Source: a virus
Length of the DNA stretch: 43,229 nt
Reading direction: 5' to 3' (one strand)
Virus record (IMG/VR): IMGVR_UViG_3300004369_000777
Location: 1-43,229 of that record
The notes below the pieces were generated by a model that was given only the letters and a program-made list of their open reading frames with translations, had not been told where the DNA came from and did not search any database. The first letter of the stretch is position 1; every line of letters starts with the position of its first letter. This document shows, in pieces, positions 8,977 through 34,707 of this stretch. Both the position numbers and the translations under genes were made by a program.

Positions 8977-9011
8977 AAAAAAAGCCGAGGTTTTTACACC
9001 TCGGCTTTTTT
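8977..9011. terminator. Bidirectional intrinsic terminator
   Basis: GCCGAGGT (8984-8991) and ACCTCGGC (8998-9005) form an eight-bp stem with a six-base loop, flanked by A7 (8977-8983) and T6 (9006-9011). Both strands therefore show stem plus U tract. It ends the fibre gene on the plus strand and the long late operon on the minus strand. Confidence 0.9.
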
Positions 9012-9013
9012 AT

Positions 9014-9106
9014 TTACTTACATTGACAAGTATCACTTGTGCAATCTTCACAATTACATTCTCCACATTTACAATCCTCACATTTACAGTTTGGATTATT
9101 ACACAT
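9014..9106 (-). CDS. Cysteine-rich metallothionein-like miniprotein (30 aa)
   Basis: The minus strand from ATG 9106 encodes 30 residues, 11 of them Cys, mostly spaced as CxC and CxxC (CKC, CEDC, CKC, CGEC, CNC, CEDC, CQC) with acidic and lysine residues between and no aromatic residues. This is the composition of a metallothionein or a multi-metal-binding peptide. AAGGAG lies six bases before the ATG, the best ribosome site in this part, and starts two bases after the gp8 stop. The gene ends three bases before the operon terminator. It is the last gene of the late operon. Metal binding is inferred; no family member is recognised at sequence level. It could chaperone metal ions for virion assembly or bind host metal. 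Confidence 0.75.
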   Translation of the reverse strand: MCNNPNCKCEDCKCGECNCEDCTSDTCQCK

Positions 9107-9119
9107 GGAATTCTCCTTA

Positions 9120-11507
9120 TTAAAACTGAATACTGATCTTCAAGTCTTCAGTTTGGTTTTGTGAACGAGAAACCATACTTCTGTTTTCTACATAAAGAAT
9201 CTGTCCAGAACCCGGCATCATGCCTGGAGTAGTTGCTGTATTTGAGCTTGTTGTATAAGCAAATACATTGTCACTTTGAACAGAGTGTAATGTTAGTGAT
9301 TCTACTTTCATATCACCACCATTTAATACAGTCAAGAAGTCTTTTCTTGGCTTGATTACACGTATTCTTTGTGCAACAGTGTCATGGTCTACTAATTTAG
9401 CAGTTGCAATCATTTCACCCGGAGCATATACTCTAGAAGTAGTTACTGAATTAATATTTCCACTGTTGGCATAAAATGCAACAATCATATCTGGCTCAAA
9501 GAAAATTTCATTTGCAGTATTACTACTTTGAGCAGAATCATTTGCTAAATTGATTCTATAGCACTGGTCTGTTTTAAATTCTCTAAACAATTCATTATAA
9601 GTAGTAGTTACACCGGGTTGACTTAACCATAATTCATTTAAATCTGATTTAGAATCATATGAAAGTGGATTCTTTAGAATTCCAATCTTTCTAAATTCGT
9701 TACCAACAGTAAATTCATCAGATTCTGTACCTTCAAATCTAGCATTAATCATAACATTGAATCCACCTAATTCTGATACAGGGTCAAATCCATGACCACC
9801 AACGGGAGGAATACATGCATGAACTTTAGCGGCATTTGCTGGTCCATTCAACGGTCCAGTTGGTGCATATCCAGCCGCACTAACATCTGGCATTACTTTA
9901 GTACTATCAATTCGATAATTATATCTACCAGGATTTGTTACTCTTGTGTCAATAATTCTACCAGATGAATTTGCTAGATAATTTCTTGTTGTAGAGTCAA
10001 ACAATGGCTCAACAATTCCATAAGCATAAAATCCATCAATAGGATCTGTGATGTTTGTGCTTTGATGATTTGGCTCAATATGAATTCTAGGATGAACTTC
10101 TATAATAGTGCTATCGGTGGTAGCAGAAACTAATGAATTTGGCAGCCCTGTTACTCCAGAGATAGAGGTTCCTATTAATTGAGGCACAACATTTGCATCA
10201 ATTGTGAACACTAAAGTGTTTATATTACGTTGAACACCTGATATAGGGAACACATATTTTTTAAATGTTTCCAAATTGGTATTATTTGATGATTTAATAA
10301 CAACACCATAATCAGCGAAGACTTCATTAATGTGTGATGCATCTACCGCTTCTCCAGCTTTTCCAGTAGTGAAATCAAAAATATTATATGGATATGGTTT
10401 TGTTACATCTGCATTAGCATATGTTGCTGCTACATTAACATCTGGCCAATCACAAGCAATGATATTAGCGATGTCCACTGTGAATGTAAGTGTGTTTGCG
10501 GCTCCACCTTGATAATTTACAGTACTTTCGCTGAATCCCATTTGATAATAACCATCACCACCAGACGGCTCATATCCATATAATGTACCATCTAGAGACT
10601 CAACTGGTGTTTTTAGTACCAATGTGTTCAAAATTCCACCAGGAATAGAAGCACCTTCTACATTATACTGATCTGAGAAGTCATTAGTTCTTGACCCGTT
10701 TTCTTTGCGTATTGTTCTTACTGGAATGTAAGAAGTAGTTACGAATTTAAGAGCCTCACCAGCATCAATTGTATAATAATATTTCCATTGATATCCATCA
10801 TTAAATTGACCTTCTCCTACATTATCAACAACCATGAAATCTTCACTTACACCACCTTCCATCACAAAGTTTAATGGCTCACGATATGATGAGTAATCCC
10901 AAATATATTGAGTTGTCCCATCAATATCAGCATTAACAAAACGACCAACTCCTTGTTTAATAGCTTTATAAACACGGAATCGATTATTTACAGTATGAAT
11001 TAAAACATCATCATCAAATTGATTGTCTGCTCTGTCATCATATCCATCATATTTTAAACCAATTCTCCAATTTCTAACACCTGCGTTAATCTCGTCTGCT
11101 CTTTCTCGTTTAACAACATGAGATACTTCATTTGAAGATACTTTTTTTGCAGCAATCATATCATCCCAATGATTGAAGTGCGCATCTTTTACACTATCAA
11201 CCGGATTGGGAGGATTGTTTTCATTAATGTTTGGATCGATACTACCATCTGGTGTGTCTGTCGGACCCCATGCAGTTACTCTACCAATGAATAAATACAT
11301 TTGGTCATCCATTGCATAATATGGTATTTTATTCAAAGCGGTTAAATTAGGTGCGCTGGTCACGCTTAATTCACCTGTTTGTGAATCAACAAACATATTT
11401 TCAGAAGGAATGTATCCACCGACACCATGTTCTGTTCTTTCAAGAAAACTTTCTCTAAACTGTTTAGCGTTACTTACACGAAAACTGGTATGCACTAGTG
11501 CTGGCAT
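9120..11507 (-). CDS. gp8: Baseplate wedge protein, T4 gp8 family (795 aa)
   Basis: Structural subunit of the baseplate wedge. The N-terminal part has the gp8 pattern: TSFRVSNAKQFRESF, then MYLFIGRVTAWGPTDTP, PNPVDSV, HFNHWDDMIAAKKV, VSHVVKR, a run ending FRVYKAIKQG, and DGYQWKYYYTI. The extreme C-terminus (SGQILYVENRSMVSRSQNQTEDLKISIQF, given in pieces: GSGQILYVENR, then NQTEDLKISIQF) parallels the GEMIYMENR and QTEEINILFTF end I recall for T4 gp8. T4 gp8 is 334 residues; this one has a large insert in its second half, as in marine relatives. Position after gp7 matches T4 gene order. Good ribosome site AAGGAG before the ATG at 11507. Confidence 0.85.
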   Translation of the reverse strand: MPALVHTSFRVSNAKQFRESFLERTEHGVGGYIPSENMFVDSQTGELSVTSAPNLTALNKIPYYAMDDQMYLFIGRVTAWGPTDTPDGSIDPNINENNPPNPVDSVKDAHFNHWDDMIAAKKVSSNEVSHVVKRERADEINAGVRNWRIGLKYDGYDDRADNQFDDDVLIHTVNNRFRVYKAIKQGVGRFVNADIDGTTQYIWDYSSYREPLNFVMEGGVSEDFMVVDNVGEGQFNDGYQWKYYYTIDAGEALKFVTTSYIPVRTIRKENGSRTNDFSDQYNVEGASIPGGILNTLVLKTPVESLDGTLYGYEPSGGDGYYQMGFSESTVNYQGGAANTLTFTVDIANIIACDWPDVNVAATYANADVTKPYPYNIFDFTTGKAGEAVDASHINEVFADYGVVIKSSNNTNLETFKKYVFPISGVQRNINTLVFTIDANVVPQLIGTSISGVTGLPNSLVSATTDSTIIEVHPRIHIEPNHQSTNITDPIDGFYAYGIVEPLFDSTTRNYLANSSGRIIDTRVTNPGRYNYRIDSTKVMPDVSAAGYAPTGPLNGPANAAKVHACIPPVGGHGFDPVSELGGFNVMINARFEGTESDEFTVGNEFRKIGILKNPLSYDSKSDLNELWLSQPGVTTTYNELFREFKTDQCYRINLANDSAQSSNTANEIFFEPDMIVAFYANSGNINSVTTSRVYAPGEMIATAKLVDHDTVAQRIRVIKPRKDFLTVLNGGDMKVESLTLHSVQSDNVFAYTTSSNTATTPGMMPGSGQILYVENRSMVSRSQNQTEDLKISIQF

Positions 11508-11531: not shown

Positions 11532-14500
11532 TTAAATCTCTACTCTTACATTGTCAATAAAATCAGGTCTATCTATATTCGGGTCATTATAATTATTTGC
11601 AAAGTACGATAATGTGTTTTCTCCAGTATTTAGCGCACTAATATCCCAAGTATAAGACTCGCTTTTTACATAATTCATTTTTAAACTAGAATGATTATAT
11701 CTTCTATAATTATTTCTTCTCTTAACCTGTCTATAATTATAATATTTTATTGTTTCATTTAAATAATTCTCAAGATAGTTATTTAAAAGAAACTCTTGTA
11801 TTGTTATTCCATTATTTATACTGTTTATTTCAAATCCATAACCATCTACTATATTATTTGCTGTATTCACATAACCAGTTGTGTTTGCGACTCCAAATGT
11901 TGAATTTACAGTTAAATGAGTGTCTTCATAATTTACAGTGGTGTTGGTAACTGCAAACTCTGTTTTTATTAATTTACCATTTCTTTCAAACTCACGTATA
12001 TTATATATAGGTTCAAAAATAAAATGACTTAATGTATCGACTTGCACTGATGGTATTGTTTCACCTAGATAATCTGATAATTTAAATTCTTCTAATTCAA
12101 ATATTTGATTTATAATAAAATCTTGAATTATTTTATCAGTCTCAAAATATAAATTTCTATTAAGAACTTCATTAAATATTTTTTCTACTTTTTCATGATG
12201 TGAAATCTCAGTAGATAATCCAGTATAATCATTTGAAATATTATCATAAGAAGTTTCCATGAAGACTTCAGGTTTCAATATTTCCGTATCTACATCATCA
12301 GATATATGAGACATCGTATATTCAAGTTCTGCTTTTAGCGCAGGTCTAATGTTAATATCACTATCTACAATTCTAGTCAATAGTCGGTCTTCTATAACCA
12401 TGTTTTCAAATTCTTTAGTGATAACATCAAATTTACTTAAAGCATTATCATCCGTGTACGATATGTTTATTCTTGTTAATTTATTTTCTATATCAGAAAC
12501 TGAAGATGTAGAATCTAAAAATGTAGTGTTTCCAAAAATAATATTTGTGAATGTATCTGAATTTGTTGTAGAATCTACTTGTGTTTTATGAATGTAATTT
12601 GGTTCACTATGAATCGAAGCGATTTTGTTGATGTTATCGAAATTGTCAATAATTCTGTGATTCAAAAAGTCTGATATTTTTTCATTGTATTTTTTAACAA
12701 AAAGCATATCTTTTGAAATTTTCTTATAGTCTGATTTAAAATCTCTTTCAAAAGAAAATTCTGTAAATTGTTCCTGTGGTGATGAGGTAGCATCTAGGAA
12801 TGTAGTATTTGCAAAAATATAATTACTCTCACTATCATATCCGACATAAGAATGTACTTGAGCTTTGTGAATATAATTCGGTTCAAAATGTGCGGATACA
12901 GACGGAATGTATTTTTTACTTGAAACTACAATTGGTTTGTCCAACACATCATCAAGTTTTTTGAGTCCATATATTTTATCATTTAATCCTATGACAGTAT
13001 GTTTATCTAAGAATTCATTTAAATTTTCAAATTCCACAAATTCACTATCTTGACCAATAGCCGTTGTGGCATCTAAGAATGTGGTATTTGCAAAAATATA
13101 ATTACTCTCACTATCATATCCGACATAAGAATGTACTTGAGCTTTGTGAATATAATTCGGTTCAAAATGCACAGATACAGATGGAATATAATCTTTACTT
13201 GAAACTATAATTGGTTTATTCAAAACCTTATCATCTAACATGTTATATGCAAAAATTTTATCATTTAAACCAATCACTGTATCTTTATTCAAGAATTTTC
13301 TATCATATTCAAATCCAGTAAATGTGTATGTTTCTTTACTTGCAGATGCATCAGCTTGTCTATCAAATTCTATATTCATTCTATAATCAACATTAATTGT
13401 AGAATCTAATTTTATCTTGTGTATATAATGTGGTATGATGTCGACAGACACTGACGGTATAAATTCTCTAGATGATGGAATGATAGGAGTGTTTAGTGCC
13501 ACACTATCAATATCACGATATCGATATATTTTATCGTTTAGACCAATAATTTTATTTTTATCTAAGAATTCATTTAAATTTTCAAATTCCACAAATTCAC
13601 TATCTTGACCAATAGCAGCCGTAGCATCTAGGAATGTAGTATTTGGAAATGTAACTGTTGTATACGTATCATGGTTTGCAACGGTATATGTTTGTCCTTT
13701 TAATACATAATTAGGTTCACTATGTACTGAAACAGAAGGTATATAATTTTTATTGTAATCAGAAATTTTAAATCCAAACTCTTTAGGATCAATTTGCTTG
13801 TAATACCATTTTGTGCCAAGTGGTTTATCTTGCAAAGGTATGACAGTGTTTTTATCAAGAATAAAATTCTGATTTTCAAAATTAATGTCTTCAGACCATT
13901 CTTCTATTGATGCACTAGCATCTAAGAATGTAGTGTTAGGGAAATATACTGTTGTATGGTTTTCAACACCAGAACTTAGGTCTAAATTAATTTTATGAGT
14001 GTATTCTGGCTCCAATTTTAAAACAGGAGATGGCATTCCATTTTTATCCCAATCTAACAATCTTTGCTTGGTGATGTGCTTTTTCATTTCTCTGTAATAC
14101 CACTTTGCTATAATATTATTCAATGAAAATATTTTATTTCTATCAGGTATTATAGAATCGTATTCTAATTCATTTATTTCATAAGTTTCTGATGTTGCAT
14201 CTAAGAATGTAGTATTTGGGAAGTATATGATTGTATCATAAAACAAATGTGTCAGTGTCTGTTCTTCTGTTGAGCGATATGTTTCTACATCCGTCATACT
14301 ATCAATACTTACTCTTGGAATAGTTCCAAATTTATTTTCTTTTAATATTCTTTTATAGTATGAGTTAGGAATATAGAAATCTAAAATTTTAGAAGAAATT
14401 TCTCTATCGTATAAATTGAAAATAGAATTTCTATCTGTTAATGATAAATCTTTTACAATTTTAGCCTCATAATCTTCAACTACACTTTCGGCACTTAAAT

Positions 14501-17500
14501 AAGTAGTATTCGGATAATATACTGTATTATCTGGTTTGGCGAACACTGGAGTACTACCAAGAATTGTTCTGTACATTTCTATATCAGTATCACCCGCTAT
14601 TGTTACAGAAGGAATCGTATCTCCATCATAAAATCTCAATAATTTCTTAAAATATGTTTCTTCCAACTCAATATCTAATATTTTAGCTACTACACCTTGA
14701 TCCAAAGAAAATATTTTATTTCTATCCATTATAAAATGATCCTGCACAATTTTAGCTTCAAAATCTTCAACTACACTTTCTGCACTTAGATAAGTTGTAT
14801 TCGGATAATATACAGTTGAATCTATAATTACACTTGGATTTACATAATCAGTACGTATAGTTTCTATGTCTATATACGAATTTATTTTCATGAATGGCAT
14901 CGTATCACCATCATAATCTGTAGTTTTCACTTTAAAATGATCTCTAATTCGTATATCCACCCAAGGTTTTATGATGTCACCAAGGTCAATATATTTTTTT
15001 CTAGATTCAACATCAAATTTATATTGAATTTTATCATGATATTCGGCAATAACAGAAGATGAATCTAAAAAAACTGTATTTGGGAAATAAACAATAGTGT
15101 CAACATTATTCAATAATGGCATTCTTTTTTTCACCGGTTGCAAATATACATAAGGTTCTGAAAACCCTTTTGCTGAAGGTAGTAAGTCACCCATCCAATC
15201 ACGTTGAACTGCTTTTATGTAAGGTAAGAAATATATATTATACCAATCACGAATTCTTTCATTGTAATCAAAAAATAAATATCTATCTAAAATAGGTACG
15301 TGAGAACGTTGAAAGGTATCAGTTTCTAATGCTTGTAAATTTGAAGCTAAAATTGAATCATCACCGCCAGATGTTAATGTAGATAATGCATCTGCCCCAT
15401 CAAGTGATGATGTATAACTTAGGTCTATATGTAAAAGATATGGTGTAGTGTTAAACGTTTGTGTTTTAAATGTCTCTTTAGTATCTAAATCATAATGTGC
15501 AATAACATTAAATCCTCTTTTGTCTATGTAATTGAATTTTTCTGAAAAATCATTATCAAAGAAATTCTCATGTGTAGAATCAAATGTTATATCATATTCA
15601 ACTACTGTATTTGTTTTATCAAATAAAAAATCTGAATCAAATGGATGTTCTATTGTGGTATCAAATGTGCTGTTATCATCATATCTTTTCAATATAAAAT
15701 AATTTTTATTATCGAATCTAGGAATTTGTCTTGGAACAATCGTGTCCTCTTCCGTAGACCTTACCTGAAAAGGTGTAGATATATAATTTTCATATTCAAG
15801 TTCATGATTTTCATTTAACTTTTTAAGAATGAAATTATCTATTTTCGCATGATTTAGAACGGCTGGAATTTCTAATTTAGCATTGAATACGGTTCTATCA
15901 AATATAGTATTTCTGCGATATTTGTAAACATTGTTATGATCAAAAAATATATCTGTGTTATCAAATGAACTCTCAAAACTATCAAAATTTGAAAACTTTT
16001 TAAGACCATAGCCATACACACTTTCTTCATCTTTTAGAATATTTGCAAATACAGGTGTACCAACACTTTGATCTACTTGGTTTAATCTAGAGATTACATA
16101 TCTGACATCTGCGTCTTTTGGTATTAATTCTGTAATATGGTCCCAATTTATAATATCACCTTGCTCTAATAAAACTCCTAGATTTTCATCATCTTGATAT
16201 GCAAATGCACTCGCTGCCGAAATTAAAGAACCAACTTTATTTTTTTGTTTATCTTCAAATTTGTTTAAAACAGTTACTATTCCTTTTGGTTCAAATTGAT
16301 GGTCTGGACAAAGAACAGTGCTTATTTCTGCAATGTCGTTTGAAACAGTCATATCAAGAGTGATTCTCAACAATTGAATCTGTGATTGCGTTTTTGGTTT
16401 TTCACCCTCTTTTAATGATGATATTGCATTTGAAAATGAAAGTGTAGATACTTTATTTCTCGGAGCATCTGCAAATCTTTCTATTCTAAAATCACAAGTA
16501 TCTTTGTCTTCATTTATAATTTTTCCAATTTGTGTTTCACCGAATTCTTCAGAAGTTGGAACAGTTATAGTCATTGGTTTAAAATCTACATTTATCACAG
16601 TGTGTAAAGGCACATCATAAATTACTTCTGGAGTCACCATTCCAATAAGCTCAAGAATTAAAGCATTTCTAACTTCATCTTTTTGATAATCTCTGAGGTC
16701 TACTTTTAAATGTGTTATATTTTGTGGACGTTGTGCATCTAGAAATTGAAAATATTGACCATAGTCACCAAAAGAAAAATATTCTTGTTGAGTGAAGTCA
16801 ACTCCAATTTCAGGTTTTGCAATAACTAGATGTTCAAGGACTAGGGGGTTGATTCTCGCTAGGTCCACCACTATCGATGGCTCTTGGTCGAAGGGAAGGC
16901 TGTCCGCCTTCCGTGCTAGTGAACTGAAAAAAAAAACTTCGGTCGGTGCCACCTCCGGATATGGATTGATTACATTTGTGTTGCTATTGAAGTCAAATAT
17001 AATTGTATTTGAAGGAGGTTGTATGGTTTGCATAAACGAGAAATCTAATTTTATACCTTCTAGAAAATCATCATTATGCAAAACTTCTTCTATGGTTTTT
17101 AATTTTGGTATTGTATATTCATTATTAATCGCAGATACCATATGCACTAAATCTAAATCAGATTCTCCAAATTTAGAAGGCATTCTCACTTCATATTCAA
17201 ATTCATCTATAAGTACACAATATAAATTTCCTGTATAGTTAAGTTTATATTTTTTAATATTGTTTTTAATACGTATCTTATCGGATAACACACTGTTATT
17301 TGTATATGCGTTATCTTTATTTGCTCCATAGAAATAATTAGGCGTTCTTCCTATGTTTAATTTTTGAGATTTTATTTTTGAAAGATTATTATTCTCATCT
17401 GATGTTACTAATTCTTGATAAGGTGCAACAGTGATTGAAATCTTGTCATTATCTGTGAACTGATATAGATCACCAGAATATTGTGTTTTGACAATTTCTC

Positions 17501-20372
17501 TAGGTACTACCCAATCTACTGTACCATCGGCTTTCACTCGGGCAACATGTGTTCCTATTTTTAAATTCTTAAATCGTACCCATCCATAATCTCTTGTTAA
17601 AATCTCAGTATCTGGCAAATAACCACCTTTTTCATTGAGTGCATTTCCAGAAAGAACTGGTATATATTCTCTATCATATGTATCACTAAACTGTATATTC
17701 GTATTACTAAATTGTTCATCATCAGAACTTAGTAAATAACCATCATAATCAAGAGAAGCATCTCTCACTAAAACTATGCCACCTTTGTTTATTCTTGTAA
17801 TATATTCACGTATAGCTTCTGTAGTGATTCTAAAATTTTTGATTGTTTTATCACGCATTGAGCCGATAGGACCTACTTTATGTTTTATAACATCAGCTAT
17901 CCAATTTGCCTCATCTTCTACATTAATAATTTTCATAAATGATTCTACAGCAACAATACCATCATAATAAGTTACGTTGTTTATGAGATTTGTAGTTTCA
18001 TTACTGTTCAAATAATTCTCAAAATCAAAAAAGGAATTATCAACAGGTTTCGTAATAATATCATCTATAAAATATTTAAATCCTTCAAATATATCGGCTA
18101 TTCCATCTACTTCTATTTCATGGAAATCTCTAGTAAACATTTCTTCATTATGTAAAAAGAATGATTCTACTTCTCTTTCATGAGAACCATTTATAGGCAA
18201 CTGTTCATTATTCAATGTTTGTATTTTAGTAAAGGGATATACCTCACTTGTGAGATATCCCATACTTTCAATTTCTATTTCTGGAAATTCAATTGCTTTA
18301 ATTCTTAAATCTAATTCTTCTTCAAATTTATTTCTAATAAATGCTAAGAATCCAGCAGGATGTAATTCATCTAATAATAATGGTTCTATATATGAAGCTG
18401 GTATTTTAGTTTTGATTTCATAAGAATAGTGTTGATAATAATGATTGTCAAAAAAGTATTTGTCTGAAGATAGTTTACTTTGATTATTTAAGAAATCTCC
18501 AAATGGTTTAAACATTAAGCTTTTTTGATATTCCAATTCAGATAACAAACCATGTGCTATTTCTGGCTCATCGTATTCATAATCTTGCGGATTTCTTAAA
18601 AATCGAATTGGATCTGAATCACGAACCATCAAACCCATTTGTTTTAGTTCGACTTGTGCAATACCTTCACCAAGAACTGCATCTAATTCTGCAGTATCAT
18701 TAAGAGTGTCAAAATCTAACAAATCAATAATTTCTGCTGTTAATGTAACTGTCTGAATTCCATTATCATATTCAAAATCTACATGAGAATCATCTTCTAA
18801 ATTGTTCACTGAGCGTTGAGTAATAAATCTCTTAACTACAAAATCCTCACTCTTGAATGGTAATCCTTCTAAAAGAATTTCATTTTTATCATTGTCAATA
18901 GCAACTTCACCAATACACACACCAACGTTTTCATCATTAGGAATACTTGTACCACCTGTGAAATTAACTACTGTGTTTGCTACAATGAATTGAGCATTCG
19001 CATCATCTTCTCTAAATGTCAGGTCAAAATAATTCATTAGACTTGCTTGTTCTAATGGATTAAATGCACTTACTCTTGGTGGTAGATTATATTCTAATCC
19101 AGAATTTTCAAAGCGAATTGATTTGATTGAACCTACTTCATACTCTGAAGATATGCTTGTTGGTAAAATGAGTTGTGGAGTTGTGTTTTGAAAAGTTCCT
19201 GAATTAGTAAAAACTTCATTCAATAAAGATTTTCCTTTGTAGAATTCTACTGGTCTATTTTTTACTAAATTATAATAATCATTAAAATATTTTGTTAGTG
19301 TTGGATTGATATTAATTTCAGATACATATGCATTTGCAGAATAACTAGCACCGGTAAAATCATTGTTGAAAACAATTGGATCTCCCACACGATATGCAAT
19401 ACCTGGGTCAACAATGTTTATATTTGTTATTGAATGTTTTTTAACCTGAGAGATTCTACCAACACCATCATTAAATACAAATCTATCATCAACTTTATGA
19501 CCGATACCACCATCTTTTATTTCTACACCAATGATAGATTCTATGATATAAGATCTACCAACTTCTTCTCCTGTACTGATGTCATAAGCGATTATTTCTT
19601 CATTTGCTTCAAATTTTCCATTTATAAAAATTAAATCAATAAAAGCACGTTTTGAATTGTCTTTGAAATTTGTTATAGTGTTTTTACAAATCGCAGATGC
19701 TTTAGATTTTGGAGCATATATTCTAGTGTTTGTAAACGAACCATTTGTTTTATTGATATCAACTTGAACAAGATTCTTTTCATAATAAGCACTGTCAGAT
19801 AATTTTAAAATATCTACTTTTGGATAATATAATTCTATCTCATCATCAAAGAATATACGAAAAAACCAATAGTAAGAATTTTCTGTTGTTTTGTTTTTAT
19901 AATAATCTAGTATTCTTTTTGTTAAAGTTTTTGGATCAACTCTGCGAAAAATACTCTGGTCTAATGAAACATTCTTTTTAAAATATTTTTTGAATATATT
20001 CATTGTAGTTTCATAAGCCGTATTCTGCTCAATATCTTTCATATACTGATAGATATTTTTATACAGATTTCTTATGAAATATACTTCTCCAGTATCACCA
20101 TTAAAAATAACTTCATTTTTATAAAATTGATTTGTTTTAGTTTCATAATCAAAATAGATGCGGTCTTTGCTTATATTCTTTACAATAGCTTTTGCTTTGG
20201 ATAAAGAGCCATATATAACATCACCTTCTGATAATTTTTTACTATCAGTCAATACCGCTATAGAAGACTCTAAAAAATTATAGTACTCTTCTACAAATTT
20301 TACAAATTGTGGATATTGTTCTAGAAAATAATTCGGAAATTGACTTTCTACCAGTTCTTTAGGTGTTGTCAT
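11532..20372 (-). CDS. gp7: Giant baseplate wedge protein, gp7-type N-terminal region plus repeats (2946 aa)
   Basis: One uninterrupted frame of 8.8 kb. Residues 1 to about 690 resemble the C-terminal half of T4 gp7 as I recall it: an early FVKFVEEYYNFLES helix, then a segment with TENSYYWFFRIFFDDEIELYYPK (pieces: NSYYWFFRIFFDDEIELYY), and near 660 a stretch ending LHPAGFLAFIRN. Residues 916-1066 are a Hint-like domain. Residues about 1145-1180 come from a GC-rich patch. Residues about 1755-2625 are ten tandem repeats of about 95 residues. T4 gp7 is 1032 residues, so most of this protein is extra. It starts within an ATGA overlap with the gp6 stop and precedes gp8, as in T4. Probable wedge scaffold with long outward extensions; the repeat region may form an arm or fibre-like rod. 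Confidence 0.75.
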   Translation of the reverse strand: MTTPKELVESQFPNYFLEQYPQFVKFVEEYYNFLESSIAVLTDSKKLSEGDVIYGSLSKAKAIVKNISKDRIYFDYETKTNQFYKNEVIFNGDTGEVYFIRNLYKNIYQYMKDIEQNTAYETTMNIFKKYFKKNVSLDQSIFRRVDPKTLTKRILDYYKNKTTENSYYWFFRIFFDDEIELYYPKVDILKLSDSAYYEKNLVQVDINKTNGSFTNTRIYAPKSKASAICKNTITNFKDNSKRAFIDLIFINGKFEANEEIIAYDISTGEEVGRSYIIESIIGVEIKDGGIGHKVDDRFVFNDGVGRISQVKKHSITNINIVDPGIAYRVGDPIVFNNDFTGASYSANAYVSEININPTLTKYFNDYYNLVKNRPVEFYKGKSLLNEVFTNSGTFQNTTPQLILPTSISSEYEVGSIKSIRFENSGLEYNLPPRVSAFNPLEQASLMNYFDLTFREDDANAQFIVANTVVNFTGGTSIPNDENVGVCIGEVAIDNDKNEILLEGLPFKSEDFVVKRFITQRSVNNLEDDSHVDFEYDNGIQTVTLTAEIIDLLDFDTLNDTAELDAVLGEGIAQVELKQMGLMVRDSDPIRFLRNPQDYEYDEPEIAHGLLSELEYQKSLMFKPFGDFLNNQSKLSSDKYFFDNHYYQHYSYEIKTKIPASYIEPLLLDELHPAGFLAFIRNKFEEELDLRIKAIEFPEIEIESMGYLTSEVYPFTKIQTLNNEQLPINGSHEREVESFFLHNEEMFTRDFHEIEVDGIADIFEGFKYFIDDIITKPVDNSFFDFENYLNSNETTNLINNVTYYDGIVAVESFMKIINVEDEANWIADVIKHKVGPIGSMRDKTIKNFRITTEAIREYITRINKGGIVLVRDASLDYDGYLLSSDDEQFSNTNIQFSDTYDREYIPVLSGNALNEKGGYLPDTEILTRDYGWVRFKNLKIGTHVARVKADGTVDWVVPREIVKTQYSGDLYQFTDNDKISITVAPYQELVTSDENNNLSKIKSQKLNIGRTPNYFYGANKDNAYTNNSVLSDKIRIKNNIKKYKLNYTGNLYCVLIDEFEYEVRMPSKFGESDLDLVHMVSAINNEYTIPKLKTIEEVLHNDDFLEGIKLDFSFMQTIQPPSNTIIFDFNSNTNVINPYPEVAPTEVFFFSSLARKADSLPFDQEPSIVVDLARINPLVLEHLVIAKPEIGVDFTQQEYFSFGDYGQYFQFLDAQRPQNITHLKVDLRDYQKDEVRNALILELIGMVTPEVIYDVPLHTVINVDFKPMTITVPTSEEFGETQIGKIINEDKDTCDFRIERFADAPRNKVSTLSFSNAISSLKEGEKPKTQSQIQLLRITLDMTVSNDIAEISTVLCPDHQFEPKGIVTVLNKFEDKQKNKVGSLISAASAFAYQDDENLGVLLEQGDIINWDHITELIPKDADVRYVISRLNQVDQSVGTPVFANILKDEESVYGYGLKKFSNFDSFESSFDNTDIFFDHNNVYKYRRNTIFDRTVFNAKLEIPAVLNHAKIDNFILKKLNENHELEYENYISTPFQVRSTEEDTIVPRQIPRFDNKNYFILKRYDDNSTFDTTIEHPFDSDFLFDKTNTVVEYDITFDSTHENFFDNDFSEKFNYIDKRGFNVIAHYDLDTKETFKTQTFNTTPYLLHIDLSYTSSLDGADALSTLTSGGDDSILASNLQALETDTFQRSHVPILDRYLFFDYNERIRDWYNIYFLPYIKAVQRDWMGDLLPSAKGFSEPYVYLQPVKKRMPLLNNVDTIVYFPNTVFLDSSSVIAEYHDKIQYKFDVESRKKYIDLGDIIKPWVDIRIRDHFKVKTTDYDGDTMPFMKINSYIDIETIRTDYVNPSVIIDSTVYYPNTTYLSAESVVEDFEAKIVQDHFIMDRNKIFSLDQGVVAKILDIELEETYFKKLLRFYDGDTIPSVTIAGDTDIEMYRTILGSTPVFAKPDNTVYYPNTTYLSAESVVEDYEAKIVKDLSLTDRNSIFNLYDREISSKILDFYIPNSYYKRILKENKFGTIPRVSIDSMTDVETYRSTEEQTLTHLFYDTIIYFPNTTFLDATSETYEINELEYDSIIPDRNKIFSLNNIIAKWYYREMKKHITKQRLLDWDKNGMPSPVLKLEPEYTHKINLDLSSGVENHTTVYFPNTTFLDASASIEEWSEDINFENQNFILDKNTVIPLQDKPLGTKWYYKQIDPKEFGFKISDYNKNYIPSVSVHSEPNYVLKGQTYTVANHDTYTTVTFPNTTFLDATAAIGQDSEFVEFENLNEFLDKNKIIGLNDKIYRYRDIDSVALNTPIIPSSREFIPSVSVDIIPHYIHKIKLDSTINVDYRMNIEFDRQADASASKETYTFTGFEYDRKFLNKDTVIGLNDKIFAYNMLDDKVLNKPIIVSSKDYIPSVSVHFEPNYIHKAQVHSYVGYDSESNYIFANTTFLDATTAIGQDSEFVEFENLNEFLDKHTVIGLNDKIYGLKKLDDVLDKPIVVSSKKYIPSVSAHFEPNYIHKAQVHSYVGYDSESNYIFANTTFLDATSSPQEQFTEFSFERDFKSDYKKISKDMLFVKKYNEKISDFLNHRIIDNFDNINKIASIHSEPNYIHKTQVDSTTNSDTFTNIIFGNTTFLDSTSSVSDIENKLTRINISYTDDNALSKFDVITKEFENMVIEDRLLTRIVDSDINIRPALKAELEYTMSHISDDVDTEILKPEVFMETSYDNISNDYTGLSTEISHHEKVEKIFNEVLNRNLYFETDKIIQDFIINQIFELEEFKLSDYLGETIPSVQVDTLSHFIFEPIYNIREFERNGKLIKTEFAVTNTTVNYEDTHLTVNSTFGVANTTGYVNTANNIVDGYGFEINSINNGITIQEFLLNNYLENYLNETIKYYNYRQVKRRNNYRRYNHSSLKMNYVKSESYTWDISALNTGENTLSYFANNYNDPNIDRPDFIDNVRVEI
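12500..15110 (-). repeat. Ten tandem repeats of about 285 bp (95 aa) in the gp7-type gene
   Basis: Each repeat contains a motif like VYFPNTTFLDATS, followed by an aspartate-rich strand, a LDKNTVIGLNDKI-type strand, then YIPSVSVHFEPNYIHK. Motif centres are near 15080, 14800, 14505, 14200, 13930, 13635, 13360 (degenerate), 13085, 12805 and 12525. Bases 12805-12890 and 13084-13169 are identical over 86 nt, and 13004-13061 and 13559-13616 are identical over 58 nt, which points to recent duplication or gene conversion. Confidence 0.85.
16841..16960 (-). other. GC-rich patch with hairpin and T10 run inside the gp7-type gene
   Basis: By hand count 65 of 120 bases are G or C, against roughly 30% around it. 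The patch holds a seven-bp inverted repeat, GGAAGGC (16894-16900) and GCCTTCC (16906-16912), and a run of ten A on the plus strand (16927-16936), which is U10 in the gp7-type mRNA. The reading frame continues through it, encoding EVFFFSSLARKADSLPFDQ and onward. Confidence 0.7.
17175..17627 (-). other. Degenerate Hint (intein-like) domain, residues 916-1066 of the gp7-type protein
   Basis: Block A is GGYLPDTEILT, then GWVRFKNLKIGTHVARV: the intein/Hint start with Tyr918 where splicing Cys1 should be. Block B is ITVAPYQELVTS with Gln986 in place of the conserved His. Block F is YTGNLYCVLIDEFEYEVRM at 1046-1064. No His-Asn plus Cys/Ser/Thr terminal block follows. Only about 55 residues lie between B and F, so there is no homing endonuclease. 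The fold is probably kept but cannot splice. Confidence 0.65.
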
Positions 20373-22626: not shown

Positions 22627-25600
22627 TTAACGAACTCTATAAAAATAAATTTCACTATTAGTTACTGTGAATGTCAAACTTTCCATCTGAAGATTTCCGT
22701 TTTCATAACCAATTAAAATATAAGGTTGTATTATAGAAGTTTCTTCTTTTCCGATTTCTATTTCCCCTATAAATTTTTTCTTTTTTCTTCTACCAAATTT
22801 AAAAATCTCATTGATATTGCCATTCAGTTGAGTAGCAATTTTTCGATTGTTTCTTCTTCCTTCAAACAAAACGCCCATGTAGACATCTACTTTATTTATC
22901 TCAGGAAGAATAGTATAATTTCCATTATTAAAAGATGCTTCTAATTCAAACTCATAACGATACACAAAATCGTTTACTATGGAACTTGAATAATTTGGTA
23001 ACTCTAACGCATCTTCAGTAAAAATTCCATGAATGTATTTGTTTTCTAATTTACCTTTAATTGTAAATTCATAATCACCACCTGTTGGTCCTCCAGTAAA
23101 GTAATTAGAATTATTTGACAACGATAATATAGTTGTGTCATTTAAGGTAAAGCTTCTAGTGGTTCTAAACGGCGTAAATGTCACAGCAATTGGCTCTGGA
23201 TTAGCTTTTATTCCAGAAGAAGGATTAGAATCTTTACTTGTCTGATCTAAAATGTTTTCTAAATCTAATAGAGAATTGTTTGGCAACAACTCATTAATTT
23301 TATTTTCATCAATTGGTGGTGGAGCAGCAGTACTTGTTACCGGATTATCATCTTTATCTAATAAGCGCAGTAAATAAGCAATGTATCGAACTGGATATGC
23401 ATCAAAAGGTAAACCTTTTGGTAAATAAGAAAGAAACATCATAGAAAATCCAAATTCACTTGAAAGAGTATTTCTTATTTTGGCAATCTCTGCATATATT
23501 TTAGCTTTTCTATATAATATTTTGTTAGATTTGGAGGTAGCTTCTGCTTTTTCTTTAGATGCTATTCCTATATTGCTTAAATTTGTATATAAAGCACTTC
23601 CCACATCAAATAGATTTGAAGGTATATTGGTTAATTGATCTATTTGATTTTGTATAGAAGCACCCAAATTTTTTGCAAGGTCGTAGTCCGATTGTCTATC
23701 AGGCAAAACAGATATTTGAGATGACTCTTGTATTTTTGTATCTTTGTTATCATGATTTGATGTTTGTGCAAAAAGATTATCAATCTCATCCACAATGGCA
23801 TCCGCTGCAGCGGGGTCTAGTTCTCTAATTTTATTTAAATGCACTTGTACAGTACTGAGTTTACTTGGTCTGAATGTTTTTGTAGGTTTTTTGGAATATC
23901 CTTCTGTACTCGTTAAATCTGCAGCAAGCTTATCATATCCTTCTAATCCAGTTTCTCTACAATATTTTGCCCAAATTGAACCTTCAAAATTAATACTGAA
24001 ATTTAAAAGTTCTAATAGAACATCTATAACATCAATTAATTCAATGATTCTTTCTTTTAAATTTTTAAGAAATTGTATAATAGTGTCTAAAGACTCTGTA
24101 TTTGGAGTAAATGTTCTTTCTAAAGAGCGAACATTATTTTGTAGAGATTTAATTGTACTTGTAATGCCTAACATGTCGCTGAAATTCATTTTAGCCCAGC
24201 TACCACCACCTGCAGTATTAAACGGTTGCATTTCTTCTTCCATGACTATACCATCGGCTATAATATCATAATCAGTTCCATTATATTTTGCAACTTGTAC
24301 ATATTGAGATGGTTGAATATAATCAAAGTTAGTTGTGAAATTATTAGCACCTGGCTTCTCTTCAATTTTAACAGTAAATTCATATACATAGTTTTGTGCT
24401 TCTACTGCTGTAAAATTATAAAACTTTTGTATATAATTCTTATATAAAGAATTCTGACCTGCTAGAGGATAACTGTTATGATAAAATACTACATTGGCAG
24501 AGTTTGTTATATTTTCAACAGTGGTTGAAGCAACACTTAGTGTATCTAATTGGTCACGTTTTTCTTGTAGATTTTCGTTAATTAAAGCCGCTCTTGCTTT
24601 TAATTGATCTACAGTTTTCTTCTTAACTAAATCATAAAGAATGTCTTTATCTTTCTCTAATTCATTTAATCTCTCTATTCTTTCAGTTTCTGCTAAATCT
24701 GGAGGAGTTATTGAAAACATATCTGATATATTCAAATATTCATTACGAATTATACTTGAAGCATTCAATAAATCTTGTTGTGCGGTTTGTATCAAATTAA
24801 AAATGGTTAAGTCTCTGGCAGGTTCACCTGAAGTGAGATTTCCATTTTCATCCGTTTGTGTTAACTGAGGTCTGAGTCGTTGATATATCGAATTATATTC
24901 ATTTACCTTTGAAATAAAGTTTTGTAAATTACCGAATTTACTTGTTTCATATATTGTGGAATCTGGTCCAAATCTTTTTACTAAAACACTAACTCTTCCA
25001 AAATCATTAAAAACAAATTTCTGAAATTGTTCTATGTCATTGAAATCTACGGAGTTTTCAAGATTTGCTGCAAAATTTGCAGCACTGTAATATATAATTT
25101 CTGATTTTACTTCTTTTATATCATCAACATAATCTGCATATACTGTTTGTGTTCCTAATTCAATTCCTAATTCAAGTGTATCAACTTCTTCTGCTGTATT
25201 TTGTTTTAAGTTAAAAGCAAGCAGTTCATCAAAAACTTCTCCGGCTTGTTCTTTAGCGTTTTGATTTAAAATTGCCATATCACCTTCATCATTATATCCT
25301 TGATTTTTTAAATTCTCAAGAAGTCTTTCTTTTCTTTCCGATGGCATGTTCGCAATTGGATCAGCAGGAAAAATATAAATATCTTTCAATTCATTATCAA
25401 TAGGATTTCTTTTTATCGAATATAAATCTTTTTTATCATAACTTGTTGTACTTGCACTTATGAATGATTTTTGAATGTCGGGTATTTTTACATTAGAGAG
25501 TATTTTTACTCTTTTTGTAACAGGTGCAAACAATCCTGTGATTTCATCATGTACACCCCACAGGTCTTCAAATTGAAAAAAGTTTGACAGACCAGCAATT

Positions 25601-26355
25601 GTTTCAAGAAGATTGTTTATTTGAGTTCGATTCGTACTAAAGTCAACTGAAAAATATAAAAATAGAGCCTCATACAAACCAAGAGGTCTTGATAAATTTT
25701 CCAGAGATTGTTTAAAGTCTATATAATCACTTTTAATATAACTTTTTCCTCCACCCAATCGTTGACTAATACTTGCACCAACTTCAGTATTTCCAGAATT
25801 TAAAAAATACTTTTCATATTGATTTAAAATTTTATCACCACTTTCTATAAGATCTTCTGCAGCGGTTTTTGTGTATGGCAAATAGTATGGAATATTTTTA
25901 TCAGAGACATCATAAAATTTCTTGTATGCAATTTCTGTTTGTTCTTGTAAAGAAGTTGTTGGAAGTCCTTGAGGTCCCCAATCTTTTAAATTTGGAGGTA
26001 TTACTAAAGCATATAATCCTAATCTTAAAAAAGCATCAAGAACATTGTATATGTAACTTGCAATGTATGAAGCAACAGCAGCCATAAAATTTGGAAGAAG
26101 ATATATAAAATCACGAAATAAAGAAAGTGCTGTAATAGCGAAATCAAAATTGTTCACTACCAAGGTGCGCATTTTTTCTAGATATTCTCTATTCTCTTCT
26201 ATGAATGCTGCATTTCCTCCTGATAAAACATTTTTAAAATCTTCAGTAACATCTTTCCATTTACCAGGACTTGTTGGTCTATACCATTCTTCATCTGTAA
26301 GTTGATCTGAAAATTGAGTAAGTGTTCTACCTAAAGGATAGCGTTTATCACTCAT
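22627..26355 (-). CDS. Large virion/baseplate-associated protein (1242 aa)
   Basis: No firm family match. Residues about 75-123 are unusually hydrophobic (for example FRDFIYLLPNFMAAVASYIA and LRLGLYALVIPP), like an amphipathic or membrane-contacting segment. Residues about 540-600 are charged and helical (ETERIERLNELEKDKDILYD), consistent with coiled coil. The C-terminal 200 residues are beta-rich. It lies between hub/adhesion genes and gp25, so it is most likely a baseplate component, perhaps a tape-like or wedge scaffold. It is translated from an ATGA overlap with the 47-residue gene upstream and carries no signal peptide. The position argues for virion function; nothing more specific can be supported. 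Confidence 0.6.
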   Translation of the reverse strand: MSDKRYPLGRTLTQFSDQLTDEEWYRPTSPGKWKDVTEDFKNVLSGGNAAFIEENREYLEKMRTLVVNNFDFAITALSLFRDFIYLLPNFMAAVASYIASYIYNVLDAFLRLGLYALVIPPNLKDWGPQGLPTTSLQEQTEIAYKKFYDVSDKNIPYYLPYTKTAAEDLIESGDKILNQYEKYFLNSGNTEVGASISQRLGGGKSYIKSDYIDFKQSLENLSRPLGLYEALFLYFSVDFSTNRTQINNLLETIAGLSNFFQFEDLWGVHDEITGLFAPVTKRVKILSNVKIPDIQKSFISASTTSYDKKDLYSIKRNPIDNELKDIYIFPADPIANMPSERKERLLENLKNQGYNDEGDMAILNQNAKEQAGEVFDELLAFNLKQNTAEEVDTLELGIELGTQTVYADYVDDIKEVKSEIIYYSAANFAANLENSVDFNDIEQFQKFVFNDFGRVSVLVKRFGPDSTIYETSKFGNLQNFISKVNEYNSIYQRLRPQLTQTDENGNLTSGEPARDLTIFNLIQTAQQDLLNASSIIRNEYLNISDMFSITPPDLAETERIERLNELEKDKDILYDLVKKKTVDQLKARAALINENLQEKRDQLDTLSVASTTVENITNSANVVFYHNSYPLAGQNSLYKNYIQKFYNFTAVEAQNYVYEFTVKIEEKPGANNFTTNFDYIQPSQYVQVAKYNGTDYDIIADGIVMEEEMQPFNTAGGGSWAKMNFSDMLGITSTIKSLQNNVRSLERTFTPNTESLDTIIQFLKNLKERIIELIDVIDVLLELLNFSINFEGSIWAKYCRETGLEGYDKLAADLTSTEGYSKKPTKTFRPSKLSTVQVHLNKIRELDPAAADAIVDEIDNLFAQTSNHDNKDTKIQESSQISVLPDRQSDYDLAKNLGASIQNQIDQLTNIPSNLFDVGSALYTNLSNIGIASKEKAEATSKSNKILYRKAKIYAEIAKIRNTLSSEFGFSMMFLSYLPKGLPFDAYPVRYIAYLLRLLDKDDNPVTSTAAPPPIDENKINELLPNNSLLDLENILDQTSKDSNPSSGIKANPEPIAVTFTPFRTTRSFTLNDTTILSLSNNSNYFTGGPTGGDYEFTIKGKLENKYIHGIFTEDALELPNYSSSIVNDFVYRYEFELEASFNNGNYTILPEINKVDVYMGVLFEGRRNNRKIATQLNGNINEIFKFGRRKKKKFIGEIEIGKEETSIIQPYILIGYENGNLQMESLTFTVTNSEIYFYRVR

Positions 26356-30508: not shown

Positions 30509-31369
30509 TCAAATATTCTTTATAAATTGTTTTAAAAATCCAATAGGAGAACAATAACTCTCCCACACTTCACGATTAAATTTTTGTTTTTTTATGATAT
30601 TATTATTTTCTACAAATTCTTTTATAATAATTTCTAATTCACTTATACTTTCATTTCCATTTAATACTATAGCTACTTCATTTAAATGAATATCATTTTC
30701 AAATATAAAATCTCTATCAGTGTTTATTAATATTGGTATTCTTCCCATCATCAGTGTTTCATAAAAACGATAGCAATAATTTCCAGCACCTCTATAACAT
30801 ACTGTAAATAAATTGTTTTCTATGTTGAATAGAAATTCTTTTTTTAGTAGTAAATCTTTTGTTCCTGTGAGTAATTTATTTCTTATAATAAAATTAGTTT
30901 TGAACTTCAATAATCTAAATTTATTAATAATTTTTTCTCTTCCATATAATAAATGACCACAATATCCAATACTTATATTATTTACGTAAGTATTTTTAAA
31001 ACTGTCTTCACAAAATGCGGGAAATGAAAATTCAGTTTTTTTCTTTTTTGATTTTAGTAATGCAGTTCTATATAATATGACATTATCTTTATAGTAATAA
31101 TCACAATCGTTTATATCATTTGAAAATGCATAGACTTTATCATTGAAACTATTTAATAAATTAAAAACAGAATCGTGTATTTCAAAGTTTAGTAAATCTG
31201 GAAAAACTATAATTGCATTTTTATCATCAATATATTCAAAAGTTTTTTTACAAAAATCATCAACACCTTTAAATTTTATGTCATCATGCATTGTATTTTT
31301 ACCATACAACGGCAGTACATCACGATTAAAATTATGAAATTTTTCATTATATAATAAAGGTATTTTCAT
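30509..31369 (-). CDS. Exostosin-type (GT47-like) glycosyltransferase
   Basis: Predicted cytoplasmic glycosyltransferase of 286 residues. The C-terminal half carries the exostosin signature: NNLFTVCYRGAGNYCYRFYE, then TLMMGRIPILINTDRDFIFE, near residues 185-225. In the family the consensus is F-C-x-x-R-G-x-x-x-x-R-x-x-E-x-x-x-x-G-x-I-P-V-I, which contacts the sugar nucleotide, and all key positions are present. Its base composition is more AT-rich and Asn/Lys/Ile-rich than neighbouring virion genes. It starts within an ATGA overlap with the 1113-residue gene and is followed one base later by the Ig-domain gene, so it is expressed late with virion genes. It may glycosylate a virion protein or the host surface. 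Confidence 0.7.
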   Translation of the reverse strand: MKIPLLYNEKFHNFNRDVLPLYGKNTMHDDIKFKGVDDFCKKTFEYIDDKNAIIVFPDLLNFEIHDSVFNLLNSFNDKVYAFSNDINDCDYYYKDNVILYRTALLKSKKKKTEFSFPAFCEDSFKNTYVNNISIGYCGHLLYGREKIINKFRLLKFKTNFIIRNKLLTGTKDLLLKKEFLFNIENNLFTVCYRGAGNYCYRFYETLMMGRIPILINTDRDFIFENDIHLNEVAIVLNGNESISELEIIIKEFVENNNIIKKQKFNREVWESYCSPIGFLKQFIKNI

Positions 31370-34300
31370 TCTATTTCTATTTCTTCAAACTCCACAATTC
31401 TTAGTAAAAAGCTATCCATAATATTTGGTGGCTTGTTCAATGGTGTTTTTAAACTTAAAATAAACGTACCATCTTGAGTCGAACCTGAACCATTTTCTAT
31501 ATTAACACTATTGTTATTCATTGTCACATTTACCGCAGTTGCTCCAAGTTTATAACTAAACTCAAATGCCGTAGAATTATAATTGTGATAATAATCTGAA
31601 CCAGAATTTCCTTTTGATGTGAGTGTAAATGTTCTAGTTGGATTTGATGTAGCATATTCATTTGCACTATTTGCGTTAACTGTACCATCCATGAAAATTG
31701 GTTTAAAATACTTTGACCAATACTCTAGAGTATTACCATTTGTTGCAGTCAAATAGTGTGATGTATTATCATCATATTCCTTGAAGAAAATATTTGCGCT
31801 TGATGTTCCTGATTTTCCTTTTTTCAATATTTTAAATCTATGTTGATTTACGATTTCTGCAACTTCTATTTCCAAACCACAATGACTATAATCAAAATCA
31901 TACAGGTGAGTGCTTTCAGAATATGAAACTAAATCTCCATATGGATCATCATTTGATAAAGGCTGATATCTAATTTTTCTTATTTGTAATGTGTCTCCCG
32001 CAGCAAAACCATGAGAAGCTGGGTTGTCATTAATTAAGGTTTCCAATACTATGTAACGATCTTCTCCATCAGTAAAATACAATGTACCCACTGCAGATTC
32101 TTCACATGCAGTATCAAAAGATTGATATCCGGTTATATCTTCTGCATAGATTGGCACACCTTGAGTAAATGCAAATGAATTGTAATTATAGATAGTTAAA
32201 AACGAACTTAGTGCAGAGGTAACAGTAACTACATCTTTTGCTGTCAAACTACTAAGAGATGAATCTGTACCATCTCTTGTGAAATCAGTACCACGATACA
32301 AAATAACTTTTTCTGTAGCCGCTGAAGGAACCATAAAAGTTGGGCTATTACCTTCTTCATCTCCAGTAGATGATGTTCTCAATAGGAATTGTCCAACACC
32401 CTCTACATCAAAACCACTATTTTTTAAATCTGGTGATTGTGATTTTGATTGAATATTAAATCCTATGCGATTAATTTTTCCATTATAAATTTGATTATGA
32501 GAATATGGTGGAGTCACTGTAATGTTTGTAGAACTTTCTACTTGATTTACCGTGTGGTACATTTTATATACAGGAAGAATTCCTGATTGAAGTGATTCCA
32601 AAGCTCTCGTAGTCTTAACTGCTCTCGTAAGCGTAGTGTTAGAAATTCCGCTGTTTATGTCTGCACCGTCAACACGATACACACTTATTAAACGATTTCC
32701 TTCTAACGATTCAAATCTATATTCATCACCATTAATAATAATTAAATCACCAATTTCAAATGTATTATTAACATCATAATCAACACTGAATTGTACACTA
32801 CCACGTTTTTTATTTGTTGTAGATGGTATTAAAGATACTGTTTCTGAAACGCCAGAAAATAAATTTGTTTTACCAGAAACTTCTTCTGAACGAATCTTTC
32901 TTGATGATGGATTTATTGTGAATGATGCATTATAAGTAATGTTAAGACCTTGATAATTTTCTGTTTTTTCAACATCATCATACGTTTTAGCAGTTACAAT
33001 ATATTCAACACCTGACAAAATAATTTTTATATTATCTTCATACACATTCAAAAAATCTGTGCCTGTGTAGTAAATAGTGTTTGTTCCATTTGTAATAAAA
33101 CTACCCCCTAAAATTTTCTCTCTAAAGTTTAATTCTATTACATCACCAGTTGCCAATTCTTCATCAAATCGTGTTCCTTGACCAACAATAGGGTCACGAA
33201 CTATCAGTATTGGACCAGTATAATCATCAGCAATGGCCGTAGATGATATAAAGTTTCCAGTTTCTGGGTCAAAGACTAATGGAAACGTATTGCCATTTGG
33301 AATGATAATTGAATCACCTGGATTTAAAACAGTTCCATCTAAAGGATTTACTGTTGTAGTTGTATCTCCACCAACTGGAGCTTGTAAATTTGCAGAACCT
33401 TCATCACCAGGACTGAGTTTTACTGTACCTGTAAGTTCAAATCTATTTTGTAATATGATTTCTTCACCTTCAATTGGTGAGCCATCCATAATCATACGTA
33501 TTGGTTTAGGTTCAGGATTCACAACCTTGGAATATGGAAATCCTTGATTCGGAGTAATATATGGAAATTGATTAGTTCCTGCAGGTATTAAAATATTTAC
33601 ATCGGGAGGATCCAGAGCGCCTGTGGAAATATCTATTGTAGAAACACAATTTTCGGTATCTGGTATATTGTTTAATATACTACACTTTATGTACGGAAGC
33701 CAAGGAATATCTGCATCAAAACCTTCTTCTCTATATTTTGGTATAAATGCAGTAAGAGGTAGTGTATTTCCACTTTGAACAAAATCTACCGTTGAGTCTT
33801 TACATTGCACAAATACATCACCATCTGTCTTTAGACATTGTAACATGATAGTGTGTGTTTTATCATCGTCATTGTCTTCATAAAATGTGAATGCTTTTTC
33901 TGAAAAAAATCCACCACCTCTCCAATTTGGTTGATCATCAGGATATGTTTGATCTTGAAAAGGTAATGCACCTCTAAGATTAAAACGATGAATGTATTTG
34001 TCAATGTCTTCTTCAGATTGTATTGCATGTTGAAGACCTCTGAGATATGCTCTCTTGATTCCCATAGCAGTACATGCACGAATAATTTCAGATACTTCAA
34101 CAAAGTTATATTTTTTCATGTCTTCAATCATCAAGTTTGCATTGTCTATGATTTTTTTTCTCAATGATTGAATTGCTGCAGGTGCTGTACTTAATCTCAA
34201 TGATAGCGTTTTTTTCTTTTGAATTTCATATGCATCATTCTGAGTAAAAGCAGAAGAGCCTTGAGGTACATTAATTGCAGTTGATATTGATTTGGTTCTT

Positions 34301-34707
34301 GTTGTGGTGTGCCAGTAATGCGTAATTTGAGATGGGTCATCTTCAACTGCACTTGTACCACTTATACCAATAATATAATTGGCATAATTTACACGATGAG
34401 CGGTATCATTCCAAGTTGCTGCTGAACTTGCTCTTGCATCCAACGCATATACATCACCTGTAAGTCCAGGAGTGAATGGATTCGTTGTAAAACTGTTTGT
34501 GATATCAGCACCGCTCCTTACATCTGACAATCCATTAGCTAATAAAGTTGCACTTGTTGTGTTGAGTCCAGACCAAAGTTCATTGAGTATCGAAACAATG
34601 TCATCTCCAGCTTCCGCTCCGTTCACAATAGCATAAGACCCTGAGAATAAATTACCTGGATAATGATCTTCTGCTACGAACAATACTGTTTTTACATCTC
34701 TTGCCAT
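31366..34707 (-). CDS. Large virion structural protein (1113 aa)
   Basis: No family recognised with confidence. The N-terminal 230 residues are mixed alpha/beta (MARDVKTVLFVAEDHYPGNL, IQSLRKKIIDNANLMIEDM). Residues 330 onward are beta-rich with many Gly/Thr/Asn turns (NILIPAGTNQFPYITPNQG; VNPLDGTVLNPGDSIIIPNG), consistent with stacked beta domains of a tail-surface or fibre-like protein. The C-terminus ends in an acidic strand (RIVEFEEIEIE). It follows the 155-residue repeat protein by 11 bp and overlaps the glycosyltransferase by four. It could be the main substrate for that enzyme, given its Ser/Thr/Asn content. That link is inference. Confidence 0.55.
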   Translation of the reverse strand: MARDVKTVLFVAEDHYPGNLFSGSYAIVNGAEAGDDIVSILNELWSGLNTTSATLLANGLSDVRSGADITNSFTTNPFTPGLTGDVYALDARASSAATWNDTAHRVNYANYIIGISGTSAVEDDPSQITHYWHTTTRTKSISTAINVPQGSSAFTQNDAYEIQKKKTLSLRLSTAPAAIQSLRKKIIDNANLMIEDMKKYNFVEVSEIIRACTAMGIKRAYLRGLQHAIQSEEDIDKYIHRFNLRGALPFQDQTYPDDQPNWRGGGFFSEKAFTFYEDNDDDKTHTIMLQCLKTDGDVFVQCKDSTVDFVQSGNTLPLTAFIPKYREEGFDADIPWLPYIKCSILNNIPDTENCVSTIDISTGALDPPDVNILIPAGTNQFPYITPNQGFPYSKVVNPEPKPIRMIMDGSPIEGEEIILQNRFELTGTVKLSPGDEGSANLQAPVGGDTTTTVNPLDGTVLNPGDSIIIPNGNTFPLVFDPETGNFISSTAIADDYTGPILIVRDPIVGQGTRFDEELATGDVIELNFREKILGGSFITNGTNTIYYTGTDFLNVYEDNIKIILSGVEYIVTAKTYDDVEKTENYQGLNITYNASFTINPSSRKIRSEEVSGKTNLFSGVSETVSLIPSTTNKKRGSVQFSVDYDVNNTFEIGDLIIINGDEYRFESLEGNRLISVYRVDGADINSGISNTTLTRAVKTTRALESLQSGILPVYKMYHTVNQVESSTNITVTPPYSHNQIYNGKINRIGFNIQSKSQSPDLKNSGFDVEGVGQFLLRTSSTGDEEGNSPTFMVPSAATEKVILYRGTDFTRDGTDSSLSSLTAKDVVTVTSALSSFLTIYNYNSFAFTQGVPIYAEDITGYQSFDTACEESAVGTLYFTDGEDRYIVLETLINDNPASHGFAAGDTLQIRKIRYQPLSNDDPYGDLVSYSESTHLYDFDYSHCGLEIEVAEIVNQHRFKILKKGKSGTSSANIFFKEYDDNTSHYLTATNGNTLEYWSKYFKPIFMDGTVNANSANEYATSNPTRTFTLTSKGNSGSDYYHNYNSTAFEFSYKLGATAVNVTMNNNSVNIENGSGSTQDGTFILSLKTPLNKPPNIMDSFLLRIVEFEEIEIE

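Follow-up and report, generated by a model that had tools for sequence, protein, structure and literature searches.

The cysteine-rich gene downstream of gp8

The window analysed here is the complete 43,229-nt stretch of the IMG/VR record IMGVR_UViG_3300004369_000777. On its minus strand, positions 9014..9106 encode a peptide of 30 amino acids; translation of 9106-9014 yields MCNNPNCKCEDCKCGECNCEDCTSDTCQCK followed by a stop codon. The peptide contains ten Cys residues (positions 2, 7, 9, 12, 14, 17, 19, 22, 27, and 29), which are spaced as CxC/CxxC, and lacks His, Trp, Tyr, and Phe. The preliminary description did not state the strand and counted eleven Cys, one more than the translation gives; the plus-strand frame at 9014-9106 is not Cys-rich. 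The gene is positioned, as initially described, between the stop codon of a gp8-like baseplate wedge gene (9120..11507, minus; Pfam Phage-Gp8 match, PHROG baseplate wedge), located 13 nt ahead of the peptide start codon, and a bidirectional intrinsic terminator with a 14-bp stem (8978..9011, both strands), which is common to the peptide operon and a convergent gene encoding 943 aa. A Shine-Dalgarno sequence, AAGGAG (9113..9118, minus), precedes the ATG by 6 nt. Its calculated duplex energy with the 16S 3' end (-9.3 kcal/mol) is the strongest among the 24 window genes, followed by that of gp8 (-9.1 kcal/mol), in agreement with the claim that this is the clearest ribosome site in the region.

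Same-strand genes upstream of the peptide gene encode a gp5-type hub, gp6, gp25, and other tail proteins, from which it is fair to infer that the peptide gene is part of a late operon. Very large structural genes are also found on the minus strand of the window, at 11532-20372 (2946 aa), 22627-26355 (1242 aa), and 31366-34707 (1113 aa); the products of the latter two have no PHROG match, although both genes lie within the tail operon. Rfam gave no match in the peptide region. ATG-initiated ORFs of 20-60 aa that reach 25% Cys occurred exactly once in the real window; 60 dinucleotide-shuffled versions of the full sequence contained none.

Seeding a search with gp8 only retrieved 14 loci, i.e., one carrier of the peptide, 12 loci without it, and one (L006) whose sequence is truncated 3' of gp8; another scan seeded with gp8 revealed no additional carriers. 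The carrier, L016, is a 146.5-kb contig and the closest gp8 relative found (66% identity over gp8). Its peptide gene occupies the corresponding position, encodes MCNNPNCKCEDCKCGNCKCLDCNDESCEC, has an AAGGAG of its own, and is followed by the same terminator, which is almost identical in L016 and L003. All ten Cys are kept between the two peptides while 8 of the 18 other comparable residues differ. In relatives with 56-59% gp8 identity, the gp8 stop codon leads almost straight into the same terminator, indicating that genomes either contain or lack the gene as one clean insertion and that it is dispensable. The expectation that relatives carry a Cys-rich frame directly after gp8 was thus borne out, if thinly, because L016 conserves the frame, but it failed for the 12 others with readable 3' flanks, which argues that gp8 is not the usual partner of the peptide.

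A family of short phage peptides

Searching 2.9 million viral contigs with a DNA pattern for MCxxPxCxCxxCxC returned 100 stretches. Dropping obvious non-members left 84 loci, which represent 54 unique coding sequences and 44 unique peptides. Nearly all of these loci are on IMG/VR viral contigs, which are genome fragments, and they fall into about ten neighbourhoods. Family members are 19-38 aa long, follow the formula MCxNxxCxCxxCxCxxCxC (consensus MCNNPxCKCENCTCDPCxC), and mostly have a ribosome site. Their conserved Cys ladder comprises C2, C7, C9, C12, C14, C17, and C19 plus further C-terminal Cys; single aromatic residues occur in a few relatives only. A Shine-Dalgarno-anchored pattern with fewer Cys matched 58 stretches, among them just two new ones that both look like chance matches. 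In the 60 nt upstream, an ATAAATA late-promoter-like motif occurs for 22 of 43 unique peptides as compared to 37 of 446 other ORFs, a difference that is inflated by relatedness.

Codons 1-14 are constrained by the DNA pattern, and only codons from 15 onward were therefore used to measure selection. The pN/pS values for four groups were 0.25, 0.10, 0.05, and 0.42, which are descriptive because pairs within groups are non-independent. Judged by these codons outside the search pattern, the family is under purifying selection. Among 84,980 prokaryote genomes, the MCxNP pattern matched no more than two contigs. Both lie in metagenome-assembled genomes (MAGs) and have phage-like gene content, which disfavours a host origin of the peptide. 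Based on the orthologues, the signature of selection, the ribosome sites, recurrence in unrelated contexts, and the shuffle null, we conclude that the Cys-rich peptide is the product of a genuine, selected phage gene, as had been proposed for the hidden 30-residue frame, and represents a previously unnamed family.

The gene has also escaped annotation, as was suspected: no Pfam, NCBIfam, or PHROG family and no annotated isolate phage with the peptide was found. For six family members, PHROGs v4 profiles gave no match even with E as high as 10. Profile searches against Pfam/NCBIfam gave nothing significant, the best match being Metallothio_Euk (E 1.8-3.5, 8-9 bits vs. a cut-off of 22). The PF02069 profile of the prokaryotic metallothioneins SmtA/BmtA/PmtA did not match at E up to 10, and PDB searches gave no significant match, the best for the family profile being a 28-residue metallothionein chain (1qjl, E = 0.84). 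Comparison of several variants with 50,697 phage records by tblastn, a search weakened by the low-complexity filter, yielded nothing better than E ~1. No genuine family member was present in ten regions inspected after scanning nine isolate phage genomes for CxCxxCxC. A short Cys-ladder ORF in cyanophage S-SSM6a was rejected as an out-of-frame overlap of CYVG_00096 that lacks a ribosome site, and matches to the wider pattern CxCxxCxCxxCxCxxC were mostly antisense or low-complexity repeats.

We found no papers on phage or viral metallothioneins in the open-access literature. Metallothioneins as a class bind d10 or soft metals in metal-thiolate clusters; they are smaller than 10 kDa, contain about 25-35% Cys in CxC/CxxC arrangement, and have few or no aromatic residues. 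The window peptide shares the size and composition features, with 10 Cys among 30 residues, a CxCxxCxCxxCxC core, and no aromatics. Short metallothioneins such as the 28-residue domain 1qjl are alike in length (about 25-38 aa), Cys content (about one third), CxC/CxxC ladder, and near absence of aromatics; the family differs in being phage-encoded and in its conserved MCxN start, and its profile match to 1qjl is not significant. With SmtA/BmtA/PmtA, the phage peptides presumably have a CxCxxCxC stretch of the N-terminal part in common, yet they lack the C-terminal Cys/His zinc-finger half. By its architecture the peptide is metallothionein-like, and by sequence comparison it is outside every curated metallothionein family tested. 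Other short Cys-ladder frames without the MCxN start, e.g., MNCNCKNCNCEVCNCTCCDC and MTKCACTDCTCKDCPCVDCGEECTCACKSKK, were observed in the viral contigs L123, L223, and L194 and may represent separate metallothionein-like families.

Iron-sulfur and spike-tip genes in the neighbourhoods

Neighbouring genes were clustered and then named by Pfam/PHROG. In group A, the peptide gene follows genes for a phage IscU (NifU_N) and A-type Fe-S carriers (Fe-S_biosyn), or follows PhoH in the same region. When loci were seeded with IscU only, without using the Cys motif, the peptide was present at 29 of 79 IscU loci among the best 80 of 443 loci. These peptides comprised 13 distinct sequences, all encoded on the IscU strand, whereas the six unrelated Cys-rich ORFs at the same set of loci were all on the opposite strand; several IscU-linked peptides, e.g., MCNNEQCECENCTCDPCECKNGDCGCG, lack the NP of the DNA pattern. 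In L016, the closest relative of the window, IscU is encoded elsewhere in the genome. IscU and A-type carrier genes have been described as auxiliary genes of marine T4-like phages, in which they were interpreted as supporting phage Fe-S proteins (Nishimura et al. 2017, PMC5332604). The phages and genes are of the same kind as those in group A; such neighbourhoods carry the peptide, while the published passages on the Fe-S genes mention no Cys-rich peptide beside them.

Two further IscU-bearing contigs deserve mention. L239 (PAAV01000031.1), a contig of a Chloroflexi MAG, has the phage group-A gene order with two A-type carriers and genes for ABC-transporter binding proteins; its IscU frame is just 75 aa long and apparently truncated, and the contig is probably phage. 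The IscU match in 'Acinetobacter phage MD-2021a' (CAKLQF020000009.1, L263) was rejected as a phage relative, as it resides in a full bacterial isc operon and resembles a host chromosome.

The second recurrent neighbour is the PAAR spike-tip gene. In group B, the peptide gene is located between the gp5 hub and PAAR genes, followed by gp25 and gp6, and its stop codon overlaps the PAAR ATG (TAATG); at one group-B locus the same gp5-PAAR slot is occupied by a diverged peptide, MCNNKNCKCHDCKCENCKCLQ. In group C, nrdA, nrdB, and glutaredoxin genes lie upstream, and a different PAAR gene precedes the peptide gene by about 165-214 nt. Seeding with PAAR recovered the peptide in 8 of 8 close group-B loci having upstream sequence, in 12 of 16 group-C loci, and in none of 11 distant PAAR loci. 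Cys/His residues hold zinc in PAAR proteins and T4 gp5.4, and iron is held by further phage spike tips; P2 and phi92 are among the phages with Zn- or Fe-holding tips (PMC10715212). The peptide, although encoded beside PAAR in two lineages, is no PAAR protein; PAAR would be its putative client.

Group-C phages additionally encode a permuted tmRNA just downstream of the PAAR and peptide genes (L324:3664-3910 and L327:3423-3667, Rfam tmRNA_permuted with 87 and 79 bits, alpha_tmRNA in L324; L055:3172-3541, ARAGORN tmRNA), which points to alphaproteobacterial-type hosts. The remaining settings include positions next to a head maturation protease and next to genes of unknown function, and about half of all neighbourhoods are not metal-related. 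A 287-aa neighbour of group-D peptides (L076 ORF 4848-5708, minus; cluster c73) itself contains a Cys-rich segment, ATCGCSSDCGHCGGK, that may be a related metal site. Because loci within a group are related, the linkages reflect few independent events, roughly two for PAAR and a few for IscU.

Possible roles in phage metal handling

The CxC/CxxC ladder without aromatics, the late placement, and the strong ribosome sites suggest a metallothionein-like soft-metal peptide, and the iron-sulfur and spike-tip neighbours that it probably helps the virus to handle metals during particle assembly. We consider it an evenly balanced proposition that the peptide is a late-expressed, metallothionein-like buffer or donor of soft metals that supports maturation of phage metalloproteins, its metal binding, metal choice, and delivery being inferred from architecture and gene context. 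Briefly, the peptide would be made late in infection from its strong ribosome site, its Cys ladder would wrap soft metal ions (Zn(II), Fe(II), or Cu(I)) in a metal-thiolate cluster, and the metal would be buffered and handed over during phage metalloprotein maturation. Clients could be the Fe-S clusters built by phage IscU/A-type carriers and the Zn- or Fe-bearing PAAR spike tip. The earlier proposal of a metal supply for virion proteins is partly supported by the recurrent Fe-S assembly and PAAR neighbourhoods. However, gp8, the neighbour in the window, is not a known metalloprotein, the metallothionein profiles gave no significant match, and the gene is dispensable, which all count against a metal donor.

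The main rival, possible but held only tentatively, is a protective sink that mops up Cu(I), Zn(II), or Cd(II) freed in the dying host, sparing Fe-S scaffolds and phage enzymes and donating nothing. Soft metals damage IscU/A-type Fe-S carriers, with which the peptide is co-located, and the same Cys architecture would serve. The variable gene position is also explained, because a sink need not adjoin a client gene. On the other hand, a closer tie to a client is suggested by two lineages, one with the TAATG overlap that couples the peptide gene to PAAR and another with PAAR nearby, and many of the carrying phages have no IscU on their contig.

It is unlikely that the peptide acts as a zinc-knuckle-like regulator or in host takeover by binding a protein of host or phage, such as a polymerase, protease, or defence protein. 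Tiny takeover proteins are abundant in phage genomes, and the non-Cys part of the N-terminus, (M)CxN(P), is conserved in all groups and might form a binding surface. Late position and late-promoter-like motifs fit poorly with takeover, and the sequence between the Cys is variable, the C-termini differ freely, and lengths range over the whole 19-38 aa. Placement of group C downstream of nrdA, nrdB, and glutaredoxin genes could indicate a redox or thiol buffer acting at the end of infection, which we regard as distinctly unlikely: the closest named neighbour there is PAAR rather than glutaredoxin, CxC ladders are typical of metal-thiolate clusters, and a thioredoxin-like fold is impossible at this peptide length. 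That the peptide is a virion component or metal cargo carried to the next host (metal theft) is very improbable, as it has no structural domain and several lineages have its gene outside the tail genes, despite its placement in the baseplate operons of the window and the gp5-PAAR group. A spurious ORF without product is hardly credible, for although the frame is below normal gene-calling length and the similar-looking S-SSM6a ORF is an artefact, the presence of orthologues, the signature of selection, the ribosome sites, and the repeated occurrence in unrelated settings already contradict this reading.

A more specific proposal, again possible but tentative, is that of a dedicated phage metallation factor, i.e., a tiny metallochaperone that would be translated beside its client, load Zn or Fe into PAAR, feed or guard Fe-S assembly, and have spread as a cassette among marine T4-like phages. 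Usual gene-calling length limits miss the whole family, whereas a 14-residue motif recovers its members. As a recurring, selected, and apparently phage-restricted family beside Fe-S scaffold and PAAR genes, these peptides provide a concrete, cloneable candidate for how phages in hosts from metal-poor seawater may metallate their own spike proteins and enzymes.
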